In this document: positions 1 to 12,958 of the stretch, one piece after another
Numbering within the stretch: the stretch's first letter is position 1
Layout of the letters: the number at the start of each line of letters is the position of its first letter
Source of the DNA: Flavivirga amylovorans
Lineage (GTDB): Bacteria; Bacteroidota; Bacteroidia; Flavobacteriales; Flavobacteriaceae
DNA: 64,000 bases
Direction of reading: 5' to 3'
Assembly (NCBI RefSeq): GCF_030540875.1
Contig: NZ_JAUOEM010000002.1
Location: forward strand, 402,926 to 466,925
The notes under the pieces: model-generated
What the model was told of the DNA's origin: nothing
Seen by the model: only the letters and a program-made list of their open reading frames with translations
Database searches by the model: none
Made by a program: the position numbers and the translations under genes

Positions 1-1
1 T

Positions 2-2236
2 TTTGTAAAAGATGTGTTTTCAAAATTATTAAGCTTATTAATGCGTTCATCAGACTTAACCTTTGATGAAAATGAATTATTGCAGTTCAGTAAAGAGCTG
101 ACAGCTAAGAAGAAAGATTATTTTTACACCTCGCAATGGCCAATTATTCCGTTTCTAAGTAGAGTTGAGAAAATAGTACAAAAAAATGGGCTTACTCCAA
201 AATTAAAACAGTCCCTTAACGATATTCAAAAATTAATTTCAAATCAAGGATATATTTATGCTGATGAAACTAAAGCCTTAAATAAAATTAAGCTCATTAA
301 AGAAGGCCCAAAACAGTTTTCGGTGAGTGGCAGGGATAAGTTAGGAAAAGCTATTTTAGATACTACAAAAGCATTTAAAGGTGAAAAGCAAGATGCATTT
401 ATTTCATTATTAAACCATTTTTCAAAAGGAAGAGAAAAAAGTGCGCCAACAAATGTTTGGTTAAAAGATGTTCAAACCCAAATTGAAGTAATTGGGAGAA
501 AATTCTTGATAACAAGTTTCATATCATGGATTGGGTTAATAATACAGTTGTTAAAGGAGATTCACAAAGATAAATCTTATGAATTTACATTTGCGTCCGA
601 TGAAAATATTCAATTGTTGCGTTCAGCTATTTGGATGAGTTCCTTGTTGAATGATGATAATTTAAACCAAGCAGTTGAAGATTTAGGACTATGGAGTTTT
701 AAAAAGTTGCCTGGTCATGGGGCGGTTAGTGTTAAGTTGGGCAATGCTTGTATTTATGCATTTTCCAAATTGCCATATAAAGATGGGGTTTCAAGATTGA
801 CAAAGTTTAGAATGAAGATTAAATACCCTTCAGTCCAATCATTAATTACTAAGGCAATTGTTAGAGTTGCGGAGGCAGAAGGCAAGACAATGGACGAAAT
901 AGAGGAGCTTGCTGTTCAAGATTTTAAATTAAATGATGATTATCAATTAATAAAGAAATTTGATTCTTATAAAGGGATAATAACAATTATAGACAGTAGC
1001 ACAGTAACCTTGTTATGGGAAAATGAAAAAGGAAAACAAATAAAAACAATTCCTAAATATGTAAGAGATAATTTCCTAGCAGAATTAAGGATATTTAAAA
1101 AACACGTAAAGGATATTCAATCTAATCTTAGCGCACAAAGAAATAGGATAGAAAAAATATTTCTAAGTAAGCGAAAATGGACTTATTCACAATGGGAAGA
1201 ACTATACCTAGAAAATAAATTGTTAGCCTTTTTTGGGACTAAACTTATCTGGAACTTTACTGTAAGTAATAAAACGATAAGTGCCATTTTTCATAAAGGA
1301 AAGTTTGTAAATACTCAAGGAGAGATAAATATTGATTATAAGAAATCCATAGTAGAATTATGGCATCCTGTTACCGCCTCCGTGAAAGAAGTAGAATTAT
1401 GGAGAGCATGGTTACTTGAGAACCAAGTAAAGCAACCATTTAAGCAAGCTCATCGAGAAGTGTATATAGTCACAGACGCTGAAAAGGCAACAAATTCTTA
1501 TTCTAATAGGTATGCAGCACATATTATTAGACAACATATTTTTAATGCTTTGTGTAGAGAAAGAGGGTGGCGTTATCAACTTCAAGGGCAATGGGATTCG
1601 CATAATATTCCAACTTTATATATTCCCTCGTGGAAGTATAGAATAGAGTTTTGGACTGATACCGAAGGTGTTTATGATTCAGCCAATGACATGGGGATAT
1701 TTAATTATTTACAAACTGATCAAGTTCGCTTTTACGACGAGAATAATCAAGTAAATATGATTGATGTACCAGCAATAGTTTTTTCTGAAGCTATGCGAGA
1801 TGTTGATTTGTTTGTTGGAGTTACAAGTATTGGTGCTGATCCTAATTGGCGAGATGGTGGAGAAGAAAGGTATCATGGCTATTGGTCAAGTTTTTCTTTT
1901 GGAGAACTAGCTACGAGTGGTTTAGAGCGAAAAGCTTTGCTTGAAAACCTAATACCAAAGCTTCAAATAAAAGAACAATGCAGCTTTGAAGGAAATTTTC
2001 TTGTTGTAATAGGTAAACTAAGAATATATAAAATTCATATGGGCAGTGGTAATATTTTAATGAAACCCAATGATCAATATTTGTGTATTGTAGCAGATAG
2101 AAAAAAAGAGGCAAATGTGTTTCTGCCATTTGAAGGAGATTCAACATTATCTACCATATTAAGTAAAGCATTTATGTTGGCAAATGATGATAAGATTAAG
2201 GATAAGACAATAACAAGTCAAATTAAAAGATATTAA
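2..2236 (+). CDS. DUF4132 (MolR-like) protein, 5' end outside window
   Basis: The frame is open to the window edge. The first possible start inside is a GTG at 14, but DUF4132 proteins are usually about 1000 residues or more, so roughly the N-terminal third is probably missing. Family signatures are the stretch NLSAQRNRIEKIF with W(S/T)YSQWEELYLENKLLAF (residues about 375-405 from the GTG), DAEKATNSYSNRYAAHI near 490, and a C-terminal part with VGVTSIGADPNW and IHMGSGNI. DUF4132 is found in MolR-like bacterial proteins whose molecular role is not settled. No signal peptide is seen, so it is probably cytoplasmic. A gene for an exported DUF695/RraB protein follows after 17 bp and may be co-transcribed. 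The family call is firm; function is unknown. Confidence 0.8.
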   Translation, partial: FVKDVFSKLLSLLMRSSDLTFDENELLQFSKELTAKKKDYFYTSQWPIIPFLSRVEKIVQKNGLTPKLKQSLNDIQKLISNQGYIYADETKALNKIKLIKEGPKQFSVSGRDKLGKAILDTTKAFKGEKQDAFISLLNHFSKGREKSAPTNVWLKDVQTQIEVIGRKFLITSFISWIGLIIQLLKEIHKDKSYEFTFASDENIQLLRSAIWMSSLLNDDNLNQAVEDLGLWSFKKLPGHGAVSVKLGNACIYAFSKLPYKDGVSRLTKFRMKIKYPSVQSLITKAIVRVAEAEGKTMDEIEELAVQDFKLNDDYQLIKKFDSYKGIITIIDSSTVTLLWENEKGKQIKTIPKYVRDNFLAELRIFKKHVKDIQSNLSAQRNRIEKIFLSKRKWTYSQWEELYLENKLLAFFGTKLIWNFTVSNKTISAIFHKGKFVNTQGEINIDYKKSIVELWHPVTASVKEVELWRAWLLENQVKQPFKQAHREVYIVTDAEKATNSYSNRYAAHIIRQHIFNALCRERGWRYQLQGQWDSHNIPTLYIPSWKYRIEFWTDTEGVYDSANDMGIFNYLQTDQVRFYDENNQVNMIDVPAIVFSEAMRDVDLFVGVTSIGADPNWRDGGEERYHGYWSSFSFGELATSGLERKALLENLIPKLQIKEQCSFEGNFLVVIGKLRIYKIHMGSGNILMKPNDQYLCIVADRKKEANVFLPFEGDSTLSTILSKAFMLANDDKIKDKTITSQIKRY

Positions 2237-2253
2237 ACTTAAATATTGAGTAA

Positions 2254-3078
2254 ATGAAAAAAATATTAGTTCTTTTTTTTGGGATTTTCTTTAGTTATTA
2301 TCTAGCAGTGTCTCAAGGCCAAAAGGAACATTGGGAATCTTATATAGCATCTTATGAAGGTGGGAAACCTGGTTCTACAACAGTAAGAATGGATTTAGTT
2401 AATTCAGTTCCGCTTTCAGGGTTCAATTACGTTTTAGTCACTGGAATAACTTATGAAAGTAAAAGAGAAGATGGTTTTCCAAAAGGAGACGAAACATTTA
2501 ACCTATTGCATAAAATTGGTAATCAATTAGAAACAGTTCTTAATAAAAGTGTAGAGAATATTTTAGTTGGTTCTTTTATGCACAATTTTGAAAGATTAGA
2601 ATACTTCTACTTAAAATCTGACAAGGGTATTAAAGAAAAAATTGAACAATTTTATAAAACTAACTATCCAAATAAAAAGCGTTATTTAAACATTAAAGAA
2701 GACAAAAATTGGGAATATTATACTCAGTTTCTTTACCCTAATGAAGAAACTATTAATTATATGGAAGATCAAAAAGTTTTAGAAGCTCTAAAAAATGCTG
2801 GTGATAATTTGACTAAAGCAAGAAGAATTGACCATTGGACTTATTTCTCAGACGAAGCTAGTTTGGAGTTATTTAAAAATGAAGTGGTAAGACAAGGATT
2901 CAAAATTGAATCTTCAGGTAAGATTGAAGATGAAAATATGCCTTACAGGTTGCGTTTCCATAGAGTTGATAATGTAGATATTGATTCTATTTATCCTGTT
3001 ACAGCATCATTGCGTAAAATGGCAATAAAATACAAAGGAGATTATGACGGTTGGGAAACTTCTGTTGAAACTGATTAA
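2254..3078 (+). CDS. exported DUF695-RraB domain protein
   Basis: A 274-residue protein. The N-terminus (about 20 residues, MKK, hydrophobic core, ending AVSQG) looks like a signal peptide. Residues about 25-150 resemble DUF695 (W.SYIASYEGGKPGSTTVRMD, then a GDETFNLLHKIGNQLE helix). Residues about 175-270 resemble the RraB fold, with IDHWTYFSDEASLELFKNEV and the typical ending YKGDYDGWETSV. RraB in Proteobacteria binds RNase E and inhibits it in the cytoplasm; an apparent signal peptide makes that role unlikely here. It sits between the DUF4132 gene and a run of membrane-protein genes. The domain architecture is inferred from motifs; function is unknown. Confidence 0.65.
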   Translation: MKKILVLFFGIFFSYYLAVSQGQKEHWESYIASYEGGKPGSTTVRMDLVNSVPLSGFNYVLVTGITYESKREDGFPKGDETFNLLHKIGNQLETVLNKSVENILVGSFMHNFERLEYFYLKSDKGIKEKIEQFYKTNYPNKKRYLNIKEDKNWEYYTQFLYPNEETINYMEDQKVLEALKNAGDNLTKARRIDHWTYFSDEASLELFKNEVVRQGFKIESSGKIEDENMPYRLRFHRVDNVDIDSIYPVTASLRKMAIKYKGDYDGWETSVETD

Positions 3079-3093
3079 ACTAAAAAACAAGAC

Positions 3094-3852
3094 TTGAAAA
3101 GACTTAAAATAATACTTGGTTTTCTTTTGCTCTACGGTACAGGAAAAGAATACGTAAATGCTAGTAGGCAGTTAGGCTCTTTATATGATATTGGAATTAT
3201 TATTCCAATAGTACTTCTCTTATTTCTGTGTACTTGGTTGATAGGAAGTGGGTTTTCAAAAACCAAACTTAAATTTAAGACCTTAAAATTTTTAAAGTAT
3301 TTTGGATTCTCATTCTTAATTTTCGTCATAGTAGCATTTTTCAGTTTAATGTCTTATGTGATACCAACTAATTTTAAAACAATAAATGGTGTTAAAATTC
3401 CAATAAATAAATGTATTGATGGCAGCGTCAGAATGATACCCAAAGAAAATGAAAGAGAAGATTATTGTATTTGTTTGGCAGAGAAAATAACTAGTGATTC
3501 TCAATTAAAGGAAAAGTATATAAAAGACCTTGAAATGGGTGAGTTTGATAAAATCATTAAAGATTTAAATGATACTGATAAAATTATTGAATTAGGAATA
3601 GAGAGTTGTTTTACTTCTCTTGAGATGCAATGGACTAATACCCTTGCAAACTCAATGAAAAGAAATTGGAAAAAGCAATTTGAAGGTACAGAGTTTGAAG
3701 AAAGTAATGATGTAGATAAATACTGCGACTGCCTTATTGAAGAATATAGAAAATTTCCATTGACAAAAATTATGGAAGTTGGATTTAACGAAAGTGAAGA
3801 AGCGATGGCAATTGATGAAAAGTGTACTAAAGAATCTTTCAGAAATGAATAA
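3094..3852 (+). CDS. membrane protein with duplicated YCxCL motif
   Basis: A 252-residue protein not recognised as a named family. The only reasonable start is a TTG at 3094, 15 bp after the previous gene. It has two or three hydrophobic segments in the first 95 residues (around 5-18, 30-50 and 68-90), then a soluble part. The soluble part contains a repeated unit: YCICLAEKI near residue 128 and YCDCLIEEY near 210, each followed by an acidic helix and a further single Cys (ESCFTS, EKCTKES). The paired Cys spacing suggests disulfides or metal binding in an extracytoplasmic repeat. Its stop is immediately followed by the ATG of the next gene, so the two are probably translated together. Confidence 0.55.
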   Translation: MKRLKIILGFLLLYGTGKEYVNASRQLGSLYDIGIIIPIVLLLFLCTWLIGSGFSKTKLKFKTLKFLKYFGFSFLIFVIVAFFSLMSYVIPTNFKTINGVKIPINKCIDGSVRMIPKENEREDYCICLAEKITSDSQLKEKYIKDLEMGEFDKIIKDLNDTDKIIELGIESCFTSLEMQWTNTLANSMKRNWKKQFEGTEFEESNDVDKYCDCLIEEYRKFPLTKIMEVGFNESEEAMAIDEKCTKESFRNE

Positions 3853-4497
3853 ATGAAACAAATTCTAAGAGCCACAATACGTCCAATTTTTATTGGTTTT
3901 CTGTTTTACCTTTTTGTTTTATTGGCAAATAATTCAGGATTTATCGCCGAAGACTTAATTCGTACATGGACTACTTTAATAGCAGGAGTTCTTTTTTTAT
4001 ATTTAATTGCTTTTGCAGCTATAAAAGACAGGAAAAGTTTTGGTATAGCTACTATTGGTTTTAGCATAGCACATCTTTTATTCAGTATTGGAATGCCAGT
4101 TTTTATGATTATAAATGAGGTGTTTTTTGTTGACCACTCTAAAAAACCTCCACGCTCATTATTAGAAAAGGATAATATTCAAATTATAGTAGATTTTAAA
4201 AAATGTCATAAAATAAGATATGGAACATTTATATTAGCATATGATACCATTATACGATATTCTGAAAACAATAAAGATTATGAAATTGTTAAAACCTTTG
4301 ACTCACAAACTACAAATAGAATAAAATGGTTAGATAGTTGTTCTTATGTACGATTTAATGAGGATAATGGTTTGACATCAGAATATCTCAGACTAGGAAA
4401 TTTTAAAGGTGGAACTCATGATATTTATTCCAAACCTACGAATTTACACAAGTTGTCCGATGAAAAAATTGAAATGGCTAGTGAGCTTAAAAACTAA
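3853..4497 (+). CDS. hypothetical membrane protein
   Basis: A 214-residue protein whose ATG directly abuts the upstream TAA, consistent with one transcript and coupled translation. Three hydrophobic segments are visible at about residues 10-28, 38-56 and 68-90. A soluble C-terminal half (about 110-214) is rich in charged and aromatic residues and has no motif I can name. It belongs to a run of small membrane proteins of unknown role between the DUF695-RraB gene and the lipoprotein at 6063. No function is proposed. Confidence 0.55.
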   Translation: MKQILRATIRPIFIGFLFYLFVLLANNSGFIAEDLIRTWTTLIAGVLFLYLIAFAAIKDRKSFGIATIGFSIAHLLFSIGMPVFMIINEVFFVDHSKKPPRSLLEKDNIQIIVDFKKCHKIRYGTFILAYDTIIRYSENNKDYEIVKTFDSQTTNRIKWLDSCSYVRFNEDNGLTSEYLRLGNFKGGTHDIYSKPTNLHKLSDEKIEMASELKN

Positions 4498-4521
4498 TAT
4501 TTGTTATCTATTATAATCGCA

Positions 4522-5307
4522 ATGAATTCTTTTGTAATCTTCATTTTTATTATTTGTGGAATTTCAATCCTATTTTGTTTATATATAATGTTTAAACCCA
4601 GAACAAAGAAAGAAAAAGAATATGACAGAAAGCTTAAAGAAAGTTTAAAAGATGAATATATAATTGACCCAGAAACAGGTGCTAGAATAACTTTAGAACA
4701 GGCTGAATCTGGACATTGGATAGCCCATGATAATGAATTTAAAACGATTCCAGAATCAGAATTGGATAAATTGCCTACTGAAGGAGCAAAACAAGCTGAA
4801 ATAGCTTTAAATTATTTAAGAGAGAGTAAAGACTACAGGAAAACTAAATTCTCAAAAGAGCAACTCAGTATTTTAGAAGAAATAAAGACTTTAAGTAATT
4901 ATGATGATTGGTCATATTCAGATTTATATAGATTTGAAGGAGGAGTTGTTTTTCTTCCTTCTGTTGAGTTAAACATTGCTGGTCATTATAGAGAGTCTCA
5001 TTTAATGTTTTGGGTGAAAATAAATGACATATCTGGACATTACTTTTTTAGAGAGAAATCATCATCAGAAAAAATATTTGACCTCATTAGAAATGATGAT
5101 GAAATTAAATCAGATCTTTATGAATGTTTTACCATTAAAAAAAGTCATAACATTATACAGATTAAACGAATTCTAGAGAGTTTTGAAAAAGAAAAAGGGT
5201 TAGAAATTGAAATCATTAATAATAATTTATTTATTAAGACACTTAAGCTTGTCTCTTTAGATGATGTTATTAGAGTTGAACAAATATTAAATAACTTGAA
5301 CCCTTAG
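4522..5307 (+). CDS. hypothetical single-span membrane protein
   Basis: About 261 residues if the ATG at 4522 is used. An in-frame TTG at 4501 would add seven residues, but the ATG places the hydrophobic anchor (about residues 4-26, followed by KPRTKKEKEYDRK) at the N-terminus in the usual way. The rest is predicted soluble and cytoplasmic by the positive-inside rule. It contains a segment ending DPETGARITLEQAESGHWI. The C-terminal third (about 195-260) resembles an alpha/beta unit. No catalytic motif was recognised. It lies 24 bp after the previous gene in the same run of plus-strand membrane proteins. Confidence 0.55.
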   Translation: MNSFVIFIFIICGISILFCLYIMFKPRTKKEKEYDRKLKESLKDEYIIDPETGARITLEQAESGHWIAHDNEFKTIPESELDKLPTEGAKQAEIALNYLRESKDYRKTKFSKEQLSILEEIKTLSNYDDWSYSDLYRFEGGVVFLPSVELNIAGHYRESHLMFWVKINDISGHYFFREKSSSEKIFDLIRNDDEIKSDLYECFTIKKSHNIIQIKRILESFEKEKGLEIEIINNNLFIKTLKLVSLDDVIRVEQILNNLNP

Positions 5308-5323
5308 TCCCCTTATTAAAATT

Positions 5324-5839
5324 ATGAAAACTAAAAATTACAATTACGTTTCAATTATAATTATAGGTCTTGTTATAGCTTTAATAGGTTTTTTAGTTTC
5401 AAAATTCACATACAGTCCAGATGCAGAATTTTGGGCTGACATTGGTCTAATAATAAGTGAATTTACTGGATTTATTATGCTAATTCGCAATGGTACTTTT
5501 ATCCGAACTAAATATTTCAGAATATTCAAAGGAGTATTTGCAATTATAATTATTGGTGCATTGTCTAAAATAATGCATTGGCAATACAATAATGTAATTA
5601 TGATTATTGGTTTTGTATTGGCTGTATTAGTTTATTTTTTTAGTTTTCTTAACAAGCCGATAAAAAAAAGGCTTGATTACTTAAAATTAATATGGGTTAT
5701 TGTTGCGTATTCTGGGGCTATTCTTCGATTTTTGCATGTTATTAATGATGAGTATCAAATAATGTCAAGTGCTATTATGTGGCTTGCAATCATTGATTAC
5801 ATGAAAATAGAAAGAGGAAAAAGAAGATTATTTGAATAA
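5324..5839 (+). CDS. multi-span membrane protein, GldL-like N-domain flavour
   Basis: A 171-residue protein with about five hydrophobic segments (approximately residues 8-26, 36-54, 70-85, 92-108 and 125-158). The stretch GALSKIMHWQYNNVIMIIGF resembles the transmembrane signature of GldL-related flavobacterial proteins (KIMHWP...MLIIG). The long GldL cytoplasmic domain is absent, so this is not the gliding-motor subunit itself. It begins 16 bp after the preceding gene and is the last of the tandem small membrane proteins. The resemblance is weak and function is unknown. Confidence 0.5.
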   Translation: MKTKNYNYVSIIIIGLVIALIGFLVSKFTYSPDAEFWADIGLIISEFTGFIMLIRNGTFIRTKYFRIFKGVFAIIIIGALSKIMHWQYNNVIMIIGFVLAVLVYFFSFLNKPIKKRLDYLKLIWVIVAYSGAILRFLHVINDEYQIMSSAIMWLAIIDYMKIERGKRRLFE

Positions 5840-5845
5840 ACTAAT

Positions 5846-5950
5846 CAAGGTATAGTCACATCAAAATTAGAAGGATCTATTTTTTACACAAAAAAAGGTT
5901 ATGAGTTTATAATTTTTCAAAATAAAACATTATTCAAACCGAGAATATAA
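5846..5950 (+). pseudogene. possible remnant of an acetyltransferase C-terminus
   Basis: Within the 223 bp between the membrane-protein gene and the lipoprotein gene, one frame reads without stops for 34 codons (KLEGSIFYTKKGYEFIIF, then a stop). This resembles the C-terminal strand-helix of GNAT acetyltransferases (NxxxxxFYxKxGFE). There is no start codon or N-terminal domain, so it could be a gene scar or chance. The remainder of the spacer shows nothing I can name. Confidence 0.2.
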
Positions 5951-6062
5951 AATTGAAGCCCATCACTCTTAACGTATTATTTTAAAACATACTAAAGTTA
6001 GTTAGTAATCTAATAGGTACAGTTTTTGTGTATAAAAAAGAAGCAATTATTTACCCTTCATT

Positions 6063-7532
6063 ATGAAAAGCATATCAGCATTCTTATTTGTTTTATTCCT
6101 TCCACTATTAGTGGCATGCCAAGAACCAAATGTAGATTCAAAAATCAGTAAATCTACTCAGCGAATTGTAAAAAAGATCGAAAAAGTTAATGAGTTAATG
6201 GGTTCGGCAGTTTACTATGGCGGAATCAGACCTAAACAATATGATAATTTCTCTCAATTAAGAAAAACAGCAAATAAGAAGGAGTTGATACTATTGACAA
6301 GCCATAAAAATGCTGTTGTTAGATGTTATGCTTTTTGGGCATTATCCTATGATAATACTGCTAAACTTTTTCCTATTATATTAGATCATTTAAATGATGA
6401 TGAGCTTGTTAGCACCCAATTTGGGTGCACAGGAAGTCAAGAAAAAGTAGGCGACTTTTTTATAAGTATAGCTACTCCACATCATGTGGATCTTAATTCG
6501 GCTAAATTAAGCGAAAAGGAGTTCAAGGAATTAGATAGTATTCTTATCTATAAAAAGAACAACTTACAAGCTAAATCTAGGGCAATTGAAAGAATAGAAA
6601 CAACTAATTCTCACTATAAGAAAATTAAGAACCTTTTCATTGAAGATAAGGATCAAAGTGCGTTAGTAAAACTTGCTAAATATAATAAAGAAGAAGATGT
6701 CGAGTTAATTTTAAATAATAAAGTTGATTATGATTCAGATGAAAATGGTTTTTTTCATACCTATAAAGCCATTAGCCATTTTCCACATCCTAAATTTTTA
6801 CCATTACTAGAAGTAAACTTAAAAAAGACGTTAGATAATTCTCATTTTAGTAATGAATGGTCACAATTATACAGAGCTATTGCCAGTTATAAAAATGAAA
6901 AAACAAGAATTCTTTTAGAAGTTCCATTTACACAAGTTGAACACAAAAGCATAAGAAAGTATCATTTAAACTTTGTTTTTGCCGCTTTAAATGAGTTCAA
7001 ATCTACTTATTATGACGAATTACTCTGGAAGCTTTGGAAAGAAGAAAAAAGAATTTCACCTAACATCTATAACTATTTAAACAATATAGATTCTGAAAGA
7101 GCATTTGTTTTGACCAAAGAGACACTAAAAGAACCCAATAATATATCTATCCTAGATTATGGATATGATGAATTTGAATCTTCACTGAGTCTTTCTGAAA
7201 TTATGCTTGATTTAATTCTTCAAAAAGAGAAAGAGTTCGGCTATCAATTAATTCATGATAATATCAAAAAGTCTAATGTACACAATTTCCCTTTATATGC
7301 AAATAAAGCAGCAGAGTTAAGGCGTCAAATGTTTATTCAGCCATTACTAGATATTCTTCATAAAGAATGGAATGCTCATATTTATTTAGCTGCAACAAAA
7401 GCCTTAATTAAATATGGACGCAAAGATATTAACCAAAAAATAATTGAAGCTAAATCTATAAACCCAAAACTTACTCAAGATTGGGGAGGAGAAGCTTTTG
7501 ATAAATTACTTAAAGAACATAGAATAAAATAA
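6063..7532 (+). CDS. HEAT-like repeat lipoprotein
   Basis: A 489-residue protein. The N-terminus has a lipoprotein signal peptide with a lipobox LVAC (Cys19), so the mature protein is probably lipid-anchored to the cell envelope. Residues about 70-130 resemble HEAT/armadillo units (NAVVRCYAFWALSYDNTAKLFPIILDHLNDDELV). A similar unit appears near the C-terminus (PLLDILHKEWNAHIYLAATKALIKYG), giving an alpha-helical scaffold. No enzymatic motif is visible, and a role in protein contacts at the membrane is the most one can infer. It stands alone, with a 223-bp spacer before it. Confidence 0.6.
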   Translation: MKSISAFLFVLFLPLLVACQEPNVDSKISKSTQRIVKKIEKVNELMGSAVYYGGIRPKQYDNFSQLRKTANKKELILLTSHKNAVVRCYAFWALSYDNTAKLFPIILDHLNDDELVSTQFGCTGSQEKVGDFFISIATPHHVDLNSAKLSEKEFKELDSILIYKKNNLQAKSRAIERIETTNSHYKKIKNLFIEDKDQSALVKLAKYNKEEDVELILNNKVDYDSDENGFFHTYKAISHFPHPKFLPLLEVNLKKTLDNSHFSNEWSQLYRAIASYKNEKTRILLEVPFTQVEHKSIRKYHLNFVFAALNEFKSTYYDELLWKLWKEEKRISPNIYNYLNNIDSERAFVLTKETLKEPNNISILDYGYDEFESSLSLSEIMLDLILQKEKEFGYQLIHDNIKKSNVHNFPLYANKAAELRRQMFIQPLLDILHKEWNAHIYLAATKALIKYGRKDINQKIIEAKSINPKLTQDWGGEAFDKLLKEHRIK

Positions 7533-7701
7533 GAGTAATTAATACTTTTTAGCTTCAATAAATTGTTTGTTTTCTTTACTGTAAAAGTTCTAATTTATTC
7601 GTTCCGATGCCAAGTTTGATTTCAGTTTGTAGTAACGAAATTACAACGCCCCGTTTAGGCTAAAAGCAGTAATTATTTTCGTCATGTTAGTCGCTAGTTT
7701 T

Positions 7702-8325
7702 TTACTTTTTTTTCACCCGTAATTTTTCAACTTCCTCCAGTGATAGCCCAGTTGATTCAGAAATTGTTTGTTCGTCAATTCCTTTTCTTTTCAGTTCTTT
7801 TGCAATCTCAATTTTTTCATTCCGTTTTGCAATTTCAGTAGCCTCTTTCTTGATCCTCTTTTCCAACACATATTTAGGAACATATTTTGTGCTTTTTTTT
7901 AATTCGCCTAGAAGACCTGTGTCTGAAAAACTCAAATAGCTTTTAGTTGAAATAATCAAATGATCAATTACTTCAGTATTAACAATTATCCCTACTTGAA
8001 TTAATTTGTCCGAAACATCTTTGTCAGCCTCAGAAGGTTTTAACTCCCCACTAGGATGGTTATGGCATAGAATTATTTTTACAGCTCTCTTTTGTAACGC
8101 AAAGCTGAAGACTTCCATAGGCTCTGCAAATGTTTTATTTACAGTTCCTAAACTAATGAGTTCGATAAAAAGAATTCGATTATTGTTTTCTAGGCCAATA
8201 ACCCAAAAGTGTTCCCTGTTTTGGTCAATTTTGTTTTCTCGAAGTAAAATCTTTTGCATAATTCCGTATATGTCATCGGAATTCAGGATTTTAATTTTTT
8301 CTTCTTCTGTCAGTTTTATGTCCAT
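7702..8325 (-). CDS. RadC-like JAB/JAMM domain protein
   Basis: A 207-residue protein. Residues about 8-145 form a RadC/JAB domain with the metalloprotease-like signature CHNHPSGELKPSEADKD (H-x-H...S...D zinc ligands) and the following DHLII strand. Despite the old name, RadC-family proteins have no proven repair function and are frequent on integrative elements. The C-terminal tail (about 165-205: EIAKELKRKGIDEQTISEST, then GLSLEEVEKL) is the short helical motif usually seen at the end of Rpn/PD-(D/E)XK transposase-like proteins, an unusual attachment. It is on the minus strand next to a recombinase locus, so it may be element cargo. Confidence 0.8.
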   Translation of the reverse strand: MDIKLTEEEKIKILNSDDIYGIMQKILLRENKIDQNREHFWVIGLENNNRILFIELISLGTVNKTFAEPMEVFSFALQKRAVKIILCHNHPSGELKPSEADKDVSDKLIQVGIIVNTEVIDHLIISTKSYLSFSDTGLLGELKKSTKYVPKYVLEKRIKKEATEIAKRNEKIEIAKELKRKGIDEQTISESTGLSLEEVEKLRVKKK

Positions 8326-8420
8326 AACGTAAATGTAAGACTTTTTTCAAAATCGAAGATGTGTTTTTTGGCTTGTGCTTAACGTTTTATACATTGTGTA
8401 CTTGTTTTTTTAATCACAAT

Positions 8421-8597
8421 ATGCAATCATTTACTTCTAATACTTTACAATCTTATTATTTAAGACTTCAAAAAAGGTTATACAAGTAACTAAATGGTTC
8501 TCTTGAATTATCTGAAGAATGACATGCTAAAATAGAAGAGTACTATTCCAAACAATCAAAAGAGCAGAAGAAGATATTAAAGGGAAAAGATTATTGA
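8421..8597 (+). pseudogene. small decayed gene with two in-frame stops
   Basis: In the 360-bp spacer between the RadC-like gene and the ribbon-helix-helix gene, an ATG at 8421 starts a frame that keeps protein-like composition for 58 codons. It is interrupted by TAA at 8487-8489 and TGA at 8520-8522 before a final TGA at 8595. The last third is a charged helix (HAKIEEYYSKQSKEQKKIL). I cannot name a family. It is either a degraded small gene or chance; the rest of the spacer (8326-8420 and 8598-8685) shows nothing. Confidence 0.25.
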
Positions 8598-8685
8598 AGA
8601 ATATTTTTCAAAGATAAAATTGTATTTAAAAATAAATTTTATTGTAAAAAACAATAATCTGGAATTGTGTTTATGGGTAATTAAT

Positions 8686-8976
8686 TTAAAATCTTATTCC
8701 ATTTTTTTGAGAATCAACCTGAGTCTTTAAAAAGTTATTAAGAGCTTTAAGCAAATTGATTTCCTTCTTAAGCGAATCAATTTCATTTTGAAGTTCCTCC
8801 TCTCGATATGAATTTATTTTTAATTCCCCGTAAGCATTTTGATAGGTGCTTAATATACTTGCTGCCCATTTTGAGAGTGAAACATTATTTGATGAAGCTA
8901 TTTTATTATACCTCATTTTTTCAAATGCAGTTACTTTTAAGGAAACCGTCATTGTTCGTGAATTTATATCTTTCAT
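8686..8976 (-). CDS. ribbon-helix-helix DNA-binding protein with coiled-coil tail
   Basis: A 96-residue protein. Residues about 7-45 match a ribbon-helix-helix pattern: a beta strand with alternating residues (RTMTVSLKVTAFEKMRYNKI), then SNNVSLSKWAASILSTY. Residues about 55-90 form a heptad-like coiled coil (EEELQNEIDSLKKEINLLKAL). Such proteins act as repressors or as relaxosome/mobilisation accessory proteins. It is divergent from the MerR-like gene at 9143, and a long imperfect palindrome lies just upstream of its start, fitting autoregulation. No relaxase is present nearby, so a mobilisation role is not supported. Confidence 0.6.
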   Translation of the reverse strand: MKDINSRTMTVSLKVTAFEKMRYNKIASSNNVSLSKWAASILSTYQNAYGELKINSYREEELQNEIDSLKKEINLLKALNNFLKTQVDSQKNGIRF

Positions 8977-8990
8977 TGGATTGACATTAT

Positions 8991-9029
8991 GTATACTTTA
9001 GGTAAACCTTTGGTTTACTTAAGGTATAT
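8991..9029. promoter_or_regulatory. imperfect palindrome, candidate operator
   Basis: Two 18-bp arms flank a TTT centre, with the core GGTAAACC-TTT-GGTTTAC extended on both sides by near-complementary TATAC/GTATA-type sequence (a few mismatches). It lies 14 bp upstream of the ribbon-helix-helix start (minus strand) and about 115 bp upstream of the MerR-like gene (plus strand). This is the expected place for a shared operator. Binding is inferred, not shown. Confidence 0.45.
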
Positions 9030-9142
9030 TTGATTATTATTTTTTAAAATATATGTAATTATGTCGCATAATTAAATCAAATATATGTGTTTTGTTCATT
9101 ATTTAAAAATTTATAGTATATTAGTTGCATTAATTTAACCTT

Positions 9143-10057
9143 ATGAAAGCAACAGAAATACTAGAATTAGGCGATATTGTTTATGACCAGCGAGATATTA
9201 GCCCAGCACAACTCGATGTAACTTCCAGACAAATTAATTATTGGATTGATGAAGCTATTGTTCCTTTTGTTCAAAAACAGCAAACTACAGACACTATTGA
9301 ATCTAAAACTGATGTAGAAAAAACCAAAACAAAATGGATTCGTTTAAATCTTGCGCAGGCCGTTTGGGTTTCAATAGTAAAGGAGCTTTTTCAGTTTAAA
9401 GTTTCTTCAGAAACACTAAAAGAATTAGCTAAAAAAGTATGGCAGGATCCCAGAGAAAAAAAGCATGCCGATAAAGTATTCAAATATCATATCGATAAAA
9501 ACCCTAATGGTTTGCTCAAAGAAGAGATTATAAAACTAAAAAACCATATAGAAGACGAGCTTTTAATGGAGCATCATTTTAGGACTATTATAAATCCATT
9601 TACTGATATGATAAAGTCGGCTATTGAAAGAACTAGTCTCCCTTATGCGATGCTTTGCGTTCCTGAAACCAACGACTATGATTTCCGTTATGGAGATAAT
9701 AGCTTAATTATTGATTTGGCAAGTGTTTATCTTCAGAAACCGATGATTAGTTTACCATTAACGCCAATAATAGCCAAAGTGCTTTCTGTAGATTTTGATA
9801 ATAGAAAGAAAAAAGATTTAAACTACTTATCTAACGTAGAGAGACAAATAAGAGATATTGTCGTTTTTAAAAGACCAAAAATTGTCGAAATTGCTTTTGA
9901 GAATAATGATATAAAACCCATAATTATTACAGAACAACATAAAAGCAGAGAACAACTAGCCCAATATATTCTAGAGAATAAAATAGCAAAAGACGCAAAG
10001 CTTCTTATTGATATTAGATCTCAAGACAATTACAAAATAACCTTAATTAAAAAATAA
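9143..10057 (+). CDS. MerR-like DNA-binding protein of the recombinase module
   Basis: A 304-residue protein. The N-terminal part resembles a MerR-type winged helix-turn-helix, LDVTSRQINYWIDEAIVPF (about residues 24-42). It is interrupted by a hydrophilic insert, then the wing-like WIRLNLAQAVWVSIVKEL (about 66-84). The remaining 200 residues are an alpha/beta domain with no family I can name. It is upstream of a 50-residue gene and the serine recombinase on the same strand, so it could regulate the recombinase or act as a directionality factor. That role is inference from position only. Confidence 0.5.
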   Translation: MKATEILELGDIVYDQRDISPAQLDVTSRQINYWIDEAIVPFVQKQQTTDTIESKTDVEKTKTKWIRLNLAQAVWVSIVKELFQFKVSSETLKELAKKVWQDPREKKHADKVFKYHIDKNPNGLLKEEIIKLKNHIEDELLMEHHFRTIINPFTDMIKSAIERTSLPYAMLCVPETNDYDFRYGDNSLIIDLASVYLQKPMISLPLTPIIAKVLSVDFDNRKKKDLNYLSNVERQIRDIVVFKRPKIVEIAFENNDIKPIIITEQHKSREQLAQYILENKIAKDAKLLIDIRSQDNYKITLIKK

Positions 10058-10125
10058 CATCATGAAAATAAATGTAGCACATAATCAGTCCCTGAAAACA
10101 CAGCCTGGTTTTATCCCTAACAAAG

Positions 10126-10278
10126 ATGGACCAGAAATCAAATTGGTTTGCAAAGGCTAAAAACATTTTAAATAATCAAAACCCAAGCCCATATTCAGAT
10201 AATGAAGTAAATGAGATTATACAGTTATTGGAAATATTTACAGATGTACTTTTCAATAACATAATTCAAAATAAATAA
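10126..10278 (+). CDS. small protein before the serine recombinase
   Basis: A 50-residue frame starting at ATG 10126 and ending 4 bp before the recombinase start. The translation is helical and protein-like (MDQKSNWFAKAKNILNNQNP, then a segment YSDNEVNEIIQLLEIFTDVL). The tight spacing suggests it is translated with the recombinase. No family is recognised. A competing 32-codon frame (10062-10160) overlaps its first part and looks less convincing. Confidence 0.45.
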   Translation: MDQKSNWFAKAKNILNNQNPSPYSDNEVNEIIQLLEIFTDVLFNNIIQNK

Positions 10279-10282
10279 GACC

Positions 10283-11869
10283 ATGAAAAATGTAATACTA
10301 TATGTTAGAGTATCTACAGATGAACAAGCAGACAAAGGGTTTTCCCTAAGAGATCAGGAACAGAAATTATTGAATTATTGTAATCTTAATAATATGAATG
10401 TACTGATGATTTTTAAAGACGATCATTCAGCCAAAACATTTAATAGGCCTGAATTCAAAAGGCTAGTTCAATATGTAAAAACTAATAAATCTAAGATTGA
10501 TCAACTCTTATTTACTAAATGGGATCGTTTTTCAAGGAATACAACCGAATCCTATAATAAGATTAAAGACTTTAACGAATTTGGAATCATTGTCAATGCC
10601 ATTGAACAACCTTTAGACTTATCAATTCCTGAACAGGGTTTGATGCTAGCGGTGTACTTATCGATGCCAGAAGTTGAAAACCATCGACGTTCCTTAAATG
10701 TCATAGCTGGAATGCGACGTGCTTTTAAGGAAGGGCGTTATGTTGTTTCACCACCTAAAGGGTACGATATGGGTCGAGATAATCAAAACAAACCCATATT
10801 AATTCCTAATAATGATGCCAGATTTATTAAAGAAGGTTTTGAACTACTAAGCGCTGGCTTGTATTCTCAGAAAGAAGTACTCCAAAAACTAAAAGGCAAG
10901 GGGTTCAAGACCAGTAAATCTGCATTTGGACGCATCATCAGAAACCCTATATATCATGGGGATATTCATTTAAAAGCTTTTAAAGATGAACCTAAACAAA
11001 TTATTAAAGGTATTCATGAATCTTTGATTTCTAAAACCATCTTTGATAAGGTTCAATATTATATTGATGGAGGTAAAAAGCAATATAAAGTCGCCCATAA
11101 AAAAGTGAATGCAAAGTTTCCTTTGAAAGATTTCGTTTTATGTCCGAGTTGTCACAAACCCCTTAAAGCTAGTAGTTCAAAAGGTAGAAATCAATACTAC
11201 TCTTACTATCATTGCGCTAAACCATGTAATACCAGATATCGAACTGAGGATATTGAAAATTGGTTTAATAATTTTCTTGGAGGAATTACATTGAATGTAA
11301 ATGCTCGAAAGCTGTTATTTAAAATGATTGAAAGGCGATTTAAGGAGCAAACTAAATCAAAAAAACTCAGTCCAAAACATTATCAAGAAATAGATTCATT
11401 AGAGCAAAAGCTTGCCAAGTTACAGGATCTTTATCTTGATGGTGAATTTGATAGTACAGAATATCGAAACGCCAAAGAACGCTATTCTAAGAAACTGAAC
11501 CAACTCCGAGAAAAACAGGACAATTTGAAAGAGTCAAACAAGGTTTTATCTATTTATAAAAATGGCTTAGAGAAACTTCAAAATTTCGATAACCAGTTTA
11601 TTAATAGTGACATAGAGCATAAAAGAAAACTCTTGGGTTCAATCTTTCCCGAAAAATTCCAATTTGTGAATCATAAGGTTCGAACCGAAGACATCAATCC
11701 TATACTTTTAAAAATTGCTAGTATTAATAAGGGATTGAAAGGAAATAAAAAAAGGGACAAATCAAATAATTCTGATTTGTCCCATGAAGTACTCAAGGTG
11801 GGAATCGAACCCACACTCCCGAAGGAACTGGATTTTGAATCCAGCGCGTCTACCAATTCCGCCACTTGA
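10283..11869 (+). CDS. large serine recombinase (site-specific integrase)
   Basis: A 528-residue frame. Residues about 4-145 are a resolvase catalytic domain: YVRVSTDEQ gives the nucleophile Ser11 with Arg9, and WDRFSRNT supplies further active-site arginines. Residues about 160-270 are the recombinase domain (PPKGYDMG, GFGRIIRNPIYHG-like). A zinc ribbon follows with CPSCHKP at 287 and HCAKPC near 311, then a coiled coil at about 370-425. Such enzymes integrate and excise mobile DNA at short att sites. The last ~40 codons are unusual: residues about 489-500 are encoded by the inverted repeat of the tRNA terminator, and about 503-528 by the antisense strand of the tRNA-Leu gene. The true end of the domain is therefore probably near residue 485, and the tail depends on the integration site. 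Confidence 0.88.
   Translation: MKNVILYVRVSTDEQADKGFSLRDQEQKLLNYCNLNNMNVLMIFKDDHSAKTFNRPEFKRLVQYVKTNKSKIDQLLFTKWDRFSRNTTESYNKIKDFNEFGIIVNAIEQPLDLSIPEQGLMLAVYLSMPEVENHRRSLNVIAGMRRAFKEGRYVVSPPKGYDMGRDNQNKPILIPNNDARFIKEGFELLSAGLYSQKEVLQKLKGKGFKTSKSAFGRIIRNPIYHGDIHLKAFKDEPKQIIKGIHESLISKTIFDKVQYYIDGGKKQYKVAHKKVNAKFPLKDFVLCPSCHKPLKASSSKGRNQYYSYYHCAKPCNTRYRTEDIENWFNNFLGGITLNVNARKLLFKMIERRFKEQTKSKKLSPKHYQEIDSLEQKLAKLQDLYLDGEFDSTEYRNAKERYSKKLNQLREKQDNLKESNKVLSIYKNGLEKLQNFDNQFINSDIEHKRKLLGSIFPEKFQFVNHKVRTEDINPILLKIASINKGLKGNKKRDKSNNSDLSHEVLKVGIEPTLPKELDFESSASTNSAT
11747..11783 (-). terminator. Rho-independent terminator of tRNA-Leu
   Basis: An 11-bp perfect stem (GGGACAAATCA / TGATTTGTCCC) with an 8-base loop is followed on the minus strand by a run of seven T. 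It is 6 bp beyond the 3' end of the tRNA-Leu gene. It lies entirely inside the 3' part of the recombinase frame on the other strand. Confidence 0.85.
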
Positions 11870-11871
11870 GC
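11790..11871 (-). tRNA. tRNA-Leu (anticodon CAA)
   Basis: Read on the minus strand, the 82-nt sequence begins GCTCAAGTGGCGGAATTGGT, the standard start of bacterial tRNA-Leu with D-arm GGT-AGAC. The anticodon stem CTGGA/TCCAG encloses loop TTCAAAA, giving CAA. A short variable arm (TTCCTTCGGGAG-type hairpin) marks a class II tRNA. The T arm has GGTTCGATTCC, and the acceptor stem CTTGAGT pairs with GCTCAAG with one G-T pair. CCA is not encoded. It reads UUG codons. A strong terminator follows, and a -7 box precedes it. Confidence 0.97.
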
Positions 11872-11963: not shown

Positions 11964-12016
11964 CACCTCGTTTAAAATAAGGCACTGTATTAGTGCTGCA
12001 AAACAACAAGTTAACT

Positions 12017-12958
12017 ATGCCAATTGTAAAGACCGAAGCTAAAATTTTTGCATGCACACAAAGTAAAGTTCTTGGAGAAAAAATAGCTAAGGCGTTTGGT
12101 GCAGATTTAGGTAATGTAATTACTTCCACTTATAGTGATGGAGAATTTCAGCCATCATATGAAGAATCTATTCGTGGGACTAGAATTTTTATTATTGGTT
12201 CTACAAATCCAGGTCCTGAAAACTTAATGGAAATGTTGTTGATGATCGATGCCGCTAAGCGTGCTTCAGCAAGGCACATTACTGCAGTATTACCGTATTT
12301 TGGATGGGCAAGACAGGATAGAAAGGATAAACCTCGTGTACCAATTGCAGCAAAATTAGTTGCTAAAATGTTAGAAGCAGCAGGAGCAACTCGTATTATT
12401 ACAATGGATTTGCATGCCGATCAAATACAAGGTTTTTTTGAAAGACCAGTAGATCATTTATTTGCATCTACTATTTTTCTACCTTATTTAAAAAGTTTGA
12501 ACTTAGATAATTTAACCATTGCGTCTCCAGATATGGGAGGTTCTAAAAGAGCTTATGCTTATTCTAAAGCATTGACAAGTGATGTGGTTATTTGTTACAA
12601 GCAGCGAGCCAAGGCTAATATAATTTCGCATATGGAATTAATTGGTGACGTTACTGGCAAAAATGTTGTATTAGTTGATGATATGGTAGATACTGCTGGG
12701 ACATTAACCAAGGCGGCAGATTTAATGATGGAACGAGGAGCTTTAAGTGTTAGAGCAATTTGTACGCATCCAATATTATCAGGAAAAGCTTATGAGAATT
12801 TAGAAAACTCAAAATTAGAAGAACTTATAGTAACAGATTCTATACCTTTATCGCAAAAGAGCGATAAAATAAAAGTTTTAAGTTGTGCAGACTTGTTTGC
12901 AGAGGTTATGGAGAAAGTTCATAACAACCAATCTATCAGTTCAAAATTTGTAATGTAA
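12017..12958 (+). CDS. prs: ribose-phosphate pyrophosphokinase
   Basis: A 313-residue enzyme making PRPP from ribose 5-phosphate and ATP for nucleotide, His and Trp synthesis. It shows the N-terminal STYSDGEFQPSYEESIRG, the ATP-binding and flexible-loop part GWARQDRKDKPRVPIAAKLV (about residues 90-110), MDLHADQIQGFF with the metal-binding His, and the PRPP-binding loop VVLVDDMVDTAGTL (about 210-225). Length is typical. The ATG at 12017 is chosen because family members start just before the KIFACTQS-like strand; an upstream GTG would add eight residues. It is followed by the L25 gene after 65 bp with no strong terminator, so the two may be co-transcribed, as is common in Bacteroidota. Confidence 0.97.
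   Translation: MPIVKTEAKIFACTQSKVLGEKIAKAFGADLGNVITSTYSDGEFQPSYEESIRGTRIFIIGSTNPGPENLMEMLLMIDAAKRASARHITAVLPYFGWARQDRKDKPRVPIAAKLVAKMLEAAGATRIITMDLHADQIQGFFERPVDHLFASTIFLPYLKSLNLDNLTIASPDMGGSKRAYAYSKALTSDVVICYKQRAKANIISHMELIGDVTGKNVVLVDDMVDTAGTLTKAADLMMERGALSVRAICTHPILSGKAYENLENSKLEELIVTDSIPLSQKSDKIKVLSCADLFAEVMEKVHNNQSISSKFVM

Follow-up and report, generated by a model that had tools for sequence, protein, structure and literature searches.

We describe a mobile element of Bacteroidota whose large serine integrase very probably uses tRNA genes, and apparently also the tmRNA gene, as bacterial attachment sites (attB), and carries the attachment site of the element (attP) within its own gene. 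Integration would then replace the C-terminal tail of the enzyme by one encoded in antisense to the host tRNA. The element was found through a window, by which we mean the whole stretch of 64,000 nucleotides analysed here (positions 402926-466925 of contig C6 in the 4.86-Mb genome G000). The architecture is well supported by sequence comparison, and from it we infer the consequence of the tail swap.

Materials and methods

Genomes, contigs and loci are designated by G, C and L numbers. Related recombinases were collected by an N-terminal pattern, which led to 80 loci kept of 451 in named genomes and 80 of 180 in viral contigs, and by a search with residues 1-480 in 397 genomes of the family, 22 of which matched at an E value of 1e-40; ten further loci came from a query with the full ORF. 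Both the patterns and residues 1-480 are independent of the part that overlaps the tRNA. Identical proteins, matches ending before residue 455 and loci below 31% identity were removed before counting. The latter were mainly 73 viral loci (L174-L246), of which one (L177) ends in an antisense tRNA, a weak control because many of these contigs stop right after the gene. Six loci below 31% identity were kept by name (L009, L010, L266, L267, L268 and L274), five of them with an adjacent tRNA.

The term P arm is used for the side of attP found at the far end of an integrated element. Twenty-four P arms were tabulated, most of them found through tail similarity or profile searches; the junctions of the element in the window, G434, G447, G448a and L152 were found independently of tail similarity, and L126 was noticed later. 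Sixteen pairings of a recombinase with a P arm were compared, two P arms sharing one G096 recombinase, and each pairing being itself an assignment made by us.

Of the papers cited by accession, PMC10083194 is Durrant et al. 2022 and PMC3783163 is by Rutherford and colleagues.

Results

Recombinase gene and tRNA-Leu(CAA) gene in the window

The features of the window are listed in Table 1. The recombinase has the domain order expected of its class, an N-terminal resolvase domain followed by a Recombinase domain (Pfam Resolvase, 2.3e-25; Recombinase, 5e-10), with Zn_ribbon_recom at 19.2 bits, under the cut-off of 25.3. As regards the zinc ribbon and coiled coil of the class, cysteines 288, 291, 312 and 316 of the relative L152 are invariant in 48 alignment rows, and its structural model has helices at 340-387 and 393-418.

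Table 1. Features of the window and of the proposed attachment site
Feature	Position	Strand	Evidence
Right-hand part of the putative 50.4-kb integrated element	1..11788	.	P arm with in-frame tail at C6:364340; shared GTAC
ORF of 50 aa directly before the recombinase gene; candidate directionality factor or partner	10126..10278	+	Small-ORF clustering in relatives
Large serine recombinase, integrated form, 528 aa	10283..11869	+	ORF and Pfam
Intrinsic-terminator-like hairpin of the tRNA, element-borne, doubling as recombinase codons	11754..11783	-	Fold
tRNA-Leu(CAA), putative host target	11789..11871	-	ARAGORN and genome DNA search
Proposed crossover region GTAC, 3' terminal bases of the tRNA on the complementary strand	11789..11792	.	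Four bases common to attR and P arm
25 tail codons of the integrated recombinase, host tRNA complement (the core may supply the first base only)	11792..11866	+	Integrated versus joined-end translations
TCGAACC of the T-loop, 16 bases away from the core; proposed attB half-site for the zinc domain	11805..11811	+	tRNA motif count
Host flank gene	11993..12958	+	ORF list; flank DNA aligns with relatives at tRNA-Leu(CAA)

The first-pass annotation had placed the recombinase stop codon inside the antisense tRNA-Leu(CAA) gene and had assigned the last 26 or so residues to the tRNA complement. Both statements held: the stop codon TGA occupies 11867-11869, and the last 26 codons (11789-11866) are the complement of the tRNA. 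That the terminator stem is read as codons was likewise borne out, for about 10 residues ahead of the tRNA-complement codons and not for the 12 or so proposed. The stem runs from 11783 to 11754 on the minus strand with 13 pairs and is followed by TTTTTTT (fold z-score -6.05); by eye, hairpins occupy the equivalent place in relatives. The tRNA-Leu(CAA) stretch gave a single full-length match at 100% in a DNA search of its own genome. The flank gene beyond it is presumably that of ribose-phosphate pyrophosphokinase, judging from its sequence.

Small ORFs just upstream of the recombinase form one cluster in 58 of 77 loci and a second in three (L087, L088 and L090). The 50-aa ORF of the window, which gave no match in Pfam or NCBIfam, was compared with these clusters by eye only, and resembles the three-locus one. 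Further upstream, a 304-aa protein (9143-10057) is without a match in the same two collections; around its gene, the two recombinase loci of the genome share about 69% DNA identity, and L088 has, by eye, a similar protein. The second of these recombinases (C1:1228113-1229648) reads into tRNA-Arg(TCT), and no match to a P arm was found for it up to the contig end.

Antisense tRNA genes at the end of related recombinases

The first-pass annotation had suggested looking among relatives for recombinases that end in the same antisense tRNA sequence, and the arrangement proved not to be unique to the window. An antisense tRNA was counted as adjacent when it lay no more than 450 nt after residue 480; on this definition 89 of the 117 distinct recombinases carry one at their 3' end, and 20 anticodon types are represented. 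The distance from residue 480 to the tRNA is 52-304 nt (median 66, n = 89). The recombinase frame is open through the linker and terminator to the tRNA in 88 of these 89 loci, compared with 23 and 5 for frames 1 and 2 and with 14.6 of 89 expected after base shuffling; since the frame is kept so far above this expectation, the open frame into the antisense tRNA is not due to chance. Without the six loci kept by name the counts become, by subtraction, 84 of 111 for the tRNA and 83 of 84 for the frame. The stop codon lies inside the tRNA in 60 loci, beyond it in 28 and before it in one.

The 28 recombinases without a full tRNA include several that reach tRNA fragments or, judged by eye, the 3' end of a tmRNA, and several at which the contig breaks off. 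L152 reads into a P arm, and so, by eye, does L126. The recombinases of L094, L160 and L272 appear by eye to enter the tmRNA 3' end.

On a tree of 88 of these proteins, no fewer than 50 switches of anticodon type and 34 of amino acid type are needed. Two G096 recombinases that agree at 473 of 480 aligned positions lie at tRNA-Leu(CAA) and tRNA-Leu(TAA). The tails of integrated copies vary widely in length and sequence.

In L147 (3908-4321) two units composed of a tRNA-Leu 3' fragment, a spacer and a terminator follow the recombinase ahead of the full tRNA, and in L167 two such units and a broken third follow it from position 11814; these repeats look as if attachment sites alone had been inserted repeatedly. 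Terminator regions resembling recombinase tails were also seen at tRNA genes where no recombinase was found (G000:C10:257995-258086, L011 and L012), probably scars of lost elements; the C10 copy is a tail scar at tRNA-Arg(TCG). By eye, L154 and L256 have a frameshift just before the core, beside the A-run of the terminator, which may reflect repeated loss of the tail once an element has integrated.

The far end of the element and the P arms

Integration at the tRNA, which the first-pass annotation had raised conditionally, is indicated by the far end of the element. This was located at G000:C6:364340, 50.4 kb to the left and beyond the window, and GTAC is common to both ends. A DNA search of the genome revealed there a copy of the recombinase 3' end with its terminator (87% identity over 50 nt, 79% over 100 nt), which diverges from the tRNA after GTAC and stays in frame as HYIDLFSNQVLKLFKQLIDLD-stop. 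This tail resembles those of related elements, and the P arms of relatives are also similar. The displaced side of the element is the tail of an older recombinase, its own empty site not being seen; the element would therefore have joined an earlier insertion.

Tandem copies in G434, G447 and G448 have the same order of recombinase tail, hairpin, six to eight tRNA bases and P arm, with a tail in the recombinase frame. The displaced copy of G434 is decayed, with a stop just before the core, and a second copy of G448 has the hairpin without a recombinase tail. In G447 two equal-scoring recombinase genes (C1:1294961-1296406 and C1:1392457-1393902) lie 97.5 kb apart, each with an in-frame TAA, which points either to stop readthrough or to decay before duplication. 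Most P arms are preceded, by eye, by a terminator-type hairpin.

Two displaced trailers look like the displaced host sides of attB. The G070 trailer is 89.7% identical over 39 nt to the tRNA-Leu terminator region in relatives, and the flank beyond it runs collinear with G020 for about 17 kb, beginning some 3.4 kb from the tRNA-Leu of G020; the G096 trailer matches G016 over 33 nt at 97%.

Copies of the first 18 tRNA nucleotides with up to two mismatches were not found upstream of the 89 loci (at most 10 kb each, often less), nor was a displaced tRNA 3' fragment in 60-80 kb for three G096 loci and G070. A search for free forms in phages and plasmids gave no match at an E value of 1e-30.

The left part of the element (G000:C6:364340-402925, L053-L055) carries an array of 15 tRNAs, two RtcB ligases, a PrfH release factor, an RlaP-type nucleotidyltransferase, KptA/Tpt1, an ADP-ribosylglycohydrolase and a PRPP-synthetase-like gene, i.e. 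an RNA-repair and NAD-related set.

Core and T-loop motif

In the 16 pairings, attR and P arm have four to eight bases in common from the G of a GT dinucleotide. To the left of this GT they share zero to four bases, except in G447 (20 bases), in which another copy of the same gene forms the left side. Serine-type junctions thus break 4-8 nt from the tRNA 3' end, and with a crossover at the 3' terminal bases an element need not carry a tRNA fragment.

The GT is at the expected place in 71 of the 89 tRNAs and absent from it in 18. Counted with hand-chosen motif lists that differ slightly between tRNAs and P arms, the start of a T-loop motif lies 16 bases from GT in 61 of these 71 tRNAs (eight of the others scored 21, one 19 and one none), and that of a TCGAA-type motif lies 21 bases from GT in 19 of 24 P arms, the other five lacking it at that distance. 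The motif position therefore differs by 5 bp between attP and attB (index 21 versus 16). A displacement of 5 bp between attP and attB has been described for the zinc-domain motif of the LI integrase (PMC3783163). By analogy, the tRNA T-loop may be the half-site of the zinc domain, which would explain why many tRNAs and the tmRNA serve as targets.

A crossover in the T-loop or anticodon, suggested by L090, L091, L149, L169, L170 and L171, was considered and rejected, because L090, L091, L032 and L167 have, by eye, an integrase-like gene of the tyrosine type beside the break, and because at the G434, G447 and G448 junctions the break is no more than 8 nt from the end of the tRNA. For L149, L169, L170, L171 and L173, displacement by another prophage is the presumed cause.

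Reading frame across attP

When the two ends were joined by script, the recombinase frame was kept in 15 of the 16 pairings; the exception was G448, whose recombinase is frameshifted before the core. In the element of the window the joined-end frame runs on at C6:364340 into a tail different from the integrated one and resembling the tails of related elements. The C-terminus would thus differ between the integrated and excised forms, as the first-pass annotation had anticipated for an element integrated here, and attP appears to lie within the recombinase gene. In the integrated form about 25 C-terminal residues are encoded by the host. The GT is a codon-phase match to the recombinase frame in 57 of 71 cases and out of frame in 14. 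L152 and, by eye, L126 are contiguous genes that run into a tail of the P-arm type.

The frame of the P arm is open over 17 codons in 24 of 24 P arms, a count biased by the discovery of most of them through tail similarity, compared with 1 and 10 in the other frames and 6.3 after shuffling. Past the motif, pN/pS is 0.55 in frame versus 0.83 and 1.53 in the other frames (three groups, 15 P arms, the pairs not being independent), and differences at the three codon positions are 0.46, 0.24 and 0.49, the second being the least variable. The tail past the motif thus has a coding signature.

An AlphaFold model of L152 with its natural tail (48 rows) had a mean pLDDT of 80.9 and a pTM of 0.44. Residues 516-526 may form a helix, predicted with low confidence, and the pLDDT is below 50 for residues 530-544; the model is thus uninformative on the tail and on docking. 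The tails were also considered as ssrA-like tags; this is not general, as by eye the majority of the 24 P-arm tails have endings unlike that of ssrA, those of L152 and G096c ending in AA.

Discussion

We propose that the integrase recognises the T-loop motif of a tRNA gene, probably by its zinc domain, and that crossover takes place within the 3' terminal bases of the tRNA, which would keep the tRNA whole while the element supplies it with a new terminator-like hairpin. On the circle, the ORF would run through the recombinase, the terminator codons, the core and the P arm, and finish with some 20 conserved tail residues, HYIDLFSNQVLKLFKQLIDLD in the present case; the predicted circle junction is ...CATGAA-GTAC-ACTACATTGACC..., with the recombinase frame uninterrupted. 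On integration, the tail codons would come to lie at the far end of the element, and the gene, now fused to the antisense tRNA, would have a different tail. The target, both ends, the core, the frame across attP and the coding-type conservation of the tail are supported by the sequences; the tail may in addition be functionally important, and the two forms may differ in activity.

Our tentative view of such a difference, which we find the most likely one, is that the enzyme with the circular tail promotes integration and that of the integrated copy is restrained or altered, a neutral by-product being about as likely. This neutral reading, in which the tail is conserved merely as attP DNA and the C-terminus changes because attP is packed against the gene, is a serious possibility that we would not put at even odds. 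It agrees with the diversity of the integrated tails in length and sequence, with the frameshifts before the core seen by eye in the integrated copies L154 and L256, and with the fact that the FSNQ part of the tail, TTCTCGAACCAA, is the T-loop-like motif itself. It fits less well with the lower in-frame pN/pS and the less variable second codon positions past that motif, and with a frame maintained across the core in all pairings except one.

The two other explanations concern the element itself. Were the recombinase an ancient fixed gene beside the tRNA, with an accidental overlap, the relatives that keep just a recombinase-tail scar beside a tRNA could be understood, but the architecture is common to the 20 anticodon types, with the many type changes on the tree, 11 genomes of the same genus match at tRNA-Leu(CAA) over the C-terminal part only (residues 426-528 at most), and displaced host terminator regions lie at far ends; this reading is already contradicted by the far ends, and we give it almost no credence. 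It is also very improbable, if slightly less so, that a tyrosine integrase inserted the element and that the serine recombinase is a passenger. The integrase-like genes next to broken tRNA copies in L090, L091, L032 and L167 would suit a passenger, but the tRNA breaks there fall in the T-loop or the anticodon arm and those of the serine-type junctions at the 3' end, and the 5-bp motif shift is a feature described for a serine integrase. Our preferred reading is a serine integrase with attP in its own gene. It may, at somewhat less than even odds, amount to a built-in switch: the circle would yield the enzyme with its tail, and integration one that is re-tailed and restrained or retargeted. Reading of the T-loop, which tRNAs and tmRNA share, would allow moves among almost any tRNA genes with no tRNA sequence to be carried along.

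Such an integrase would extend to serine recombinases of bacteria a self-altering behaviour described in one review as exclusively archaeal, Mx8 already being a bacterial case. Crossover at the last bases together with a spare terminator suggests how an element can occupy an apparently single-copy tRNA gene harmlessly. Directionality becomes testable with two natural forms of one enzyme, and integrases with natural sites at many tRNA genes may be of use in genome engineering. In annotation, elements of this kind would escape searches for displaced tRNA fragments.

The enzyme resembles the large serine integrases (A118/LI, Bxb1 and phiC31) in its Resolvase and Recombinase domains and its short core; it has PDB matches to the A118 integrase, and, as described for the LI integrase, the motif is closer to the core by 5 bp in attB than in attP. 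Unlike them, it targets tRNA 3' ends and apparently has attP inside the integrase ORF. The first-pass annotation had called a tRNA target unusual for a serine recombinase, an assessment that is supported here. According to Islander, targeting of tRNA and tmRNA genes is known for tyrosine integrases only (PMC4383910). The main text of PMC10083194 does not contain the word tRNA, and PMC12424338 gives tRNA targets for all integrases together, without a breakdown for serine integrases. In the literature searched, which lay largely outside subscription journals and included PMC12884075, we came across no serine integrase that sits at a tRNA gene or whose own ORF contains attP; within these limits the self-altering, tRNA-end-targeting behaviour of a large serine integrase is new.

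As in the tDNA islands of Islander, the tRNA gene is kept after integration; those islands have tyrosine integrases and a displaced tRNA fragment (PMC4383910), whereas here 4-8 nt are in common and no longer copy was seen at serine-type junctions in the upstream stretches searched. The integrase of phage Mx8 is of the tyrosine type, unlike the serine recombinase described here. In Myxococcus xanthus, attP of Mx8 lies in the int coding sequence, and integration gives the gene a new 3' end and a modified specificity (PMC6070905); attP within the integrase gene and a 3' end changed by integration are thus shared features. In mycobacteriophage BPs, attP lies in the repressor ORF, the C-termini of which differ before and after integration (PMC4557955). 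The switch of a C-terminus through an attP inside an ORF is common to both systems, but in BPs it affects the repressor, the viral form of which bears an ssrA-like degradation tag, and such a tag is not general in the P-arm tails here. Archaeal suicidal integrases of the SSV1 type carry the att site in their own gene, which integration alters, and the review that describes them regards self-altering behaviour as exclusive to archaeal recombinases (PMC8371274). The present element is like them in having an att site in the integrase ORF and a gene that would be changed by integration, as judged from the joined-end frames. The archaeal enzymes are tyrosine recombinases whose gene is split with the catalytic domain in the C-terminal fragment, whereas the present enzyme is a serine recombinase whose catalytic part stays whole.
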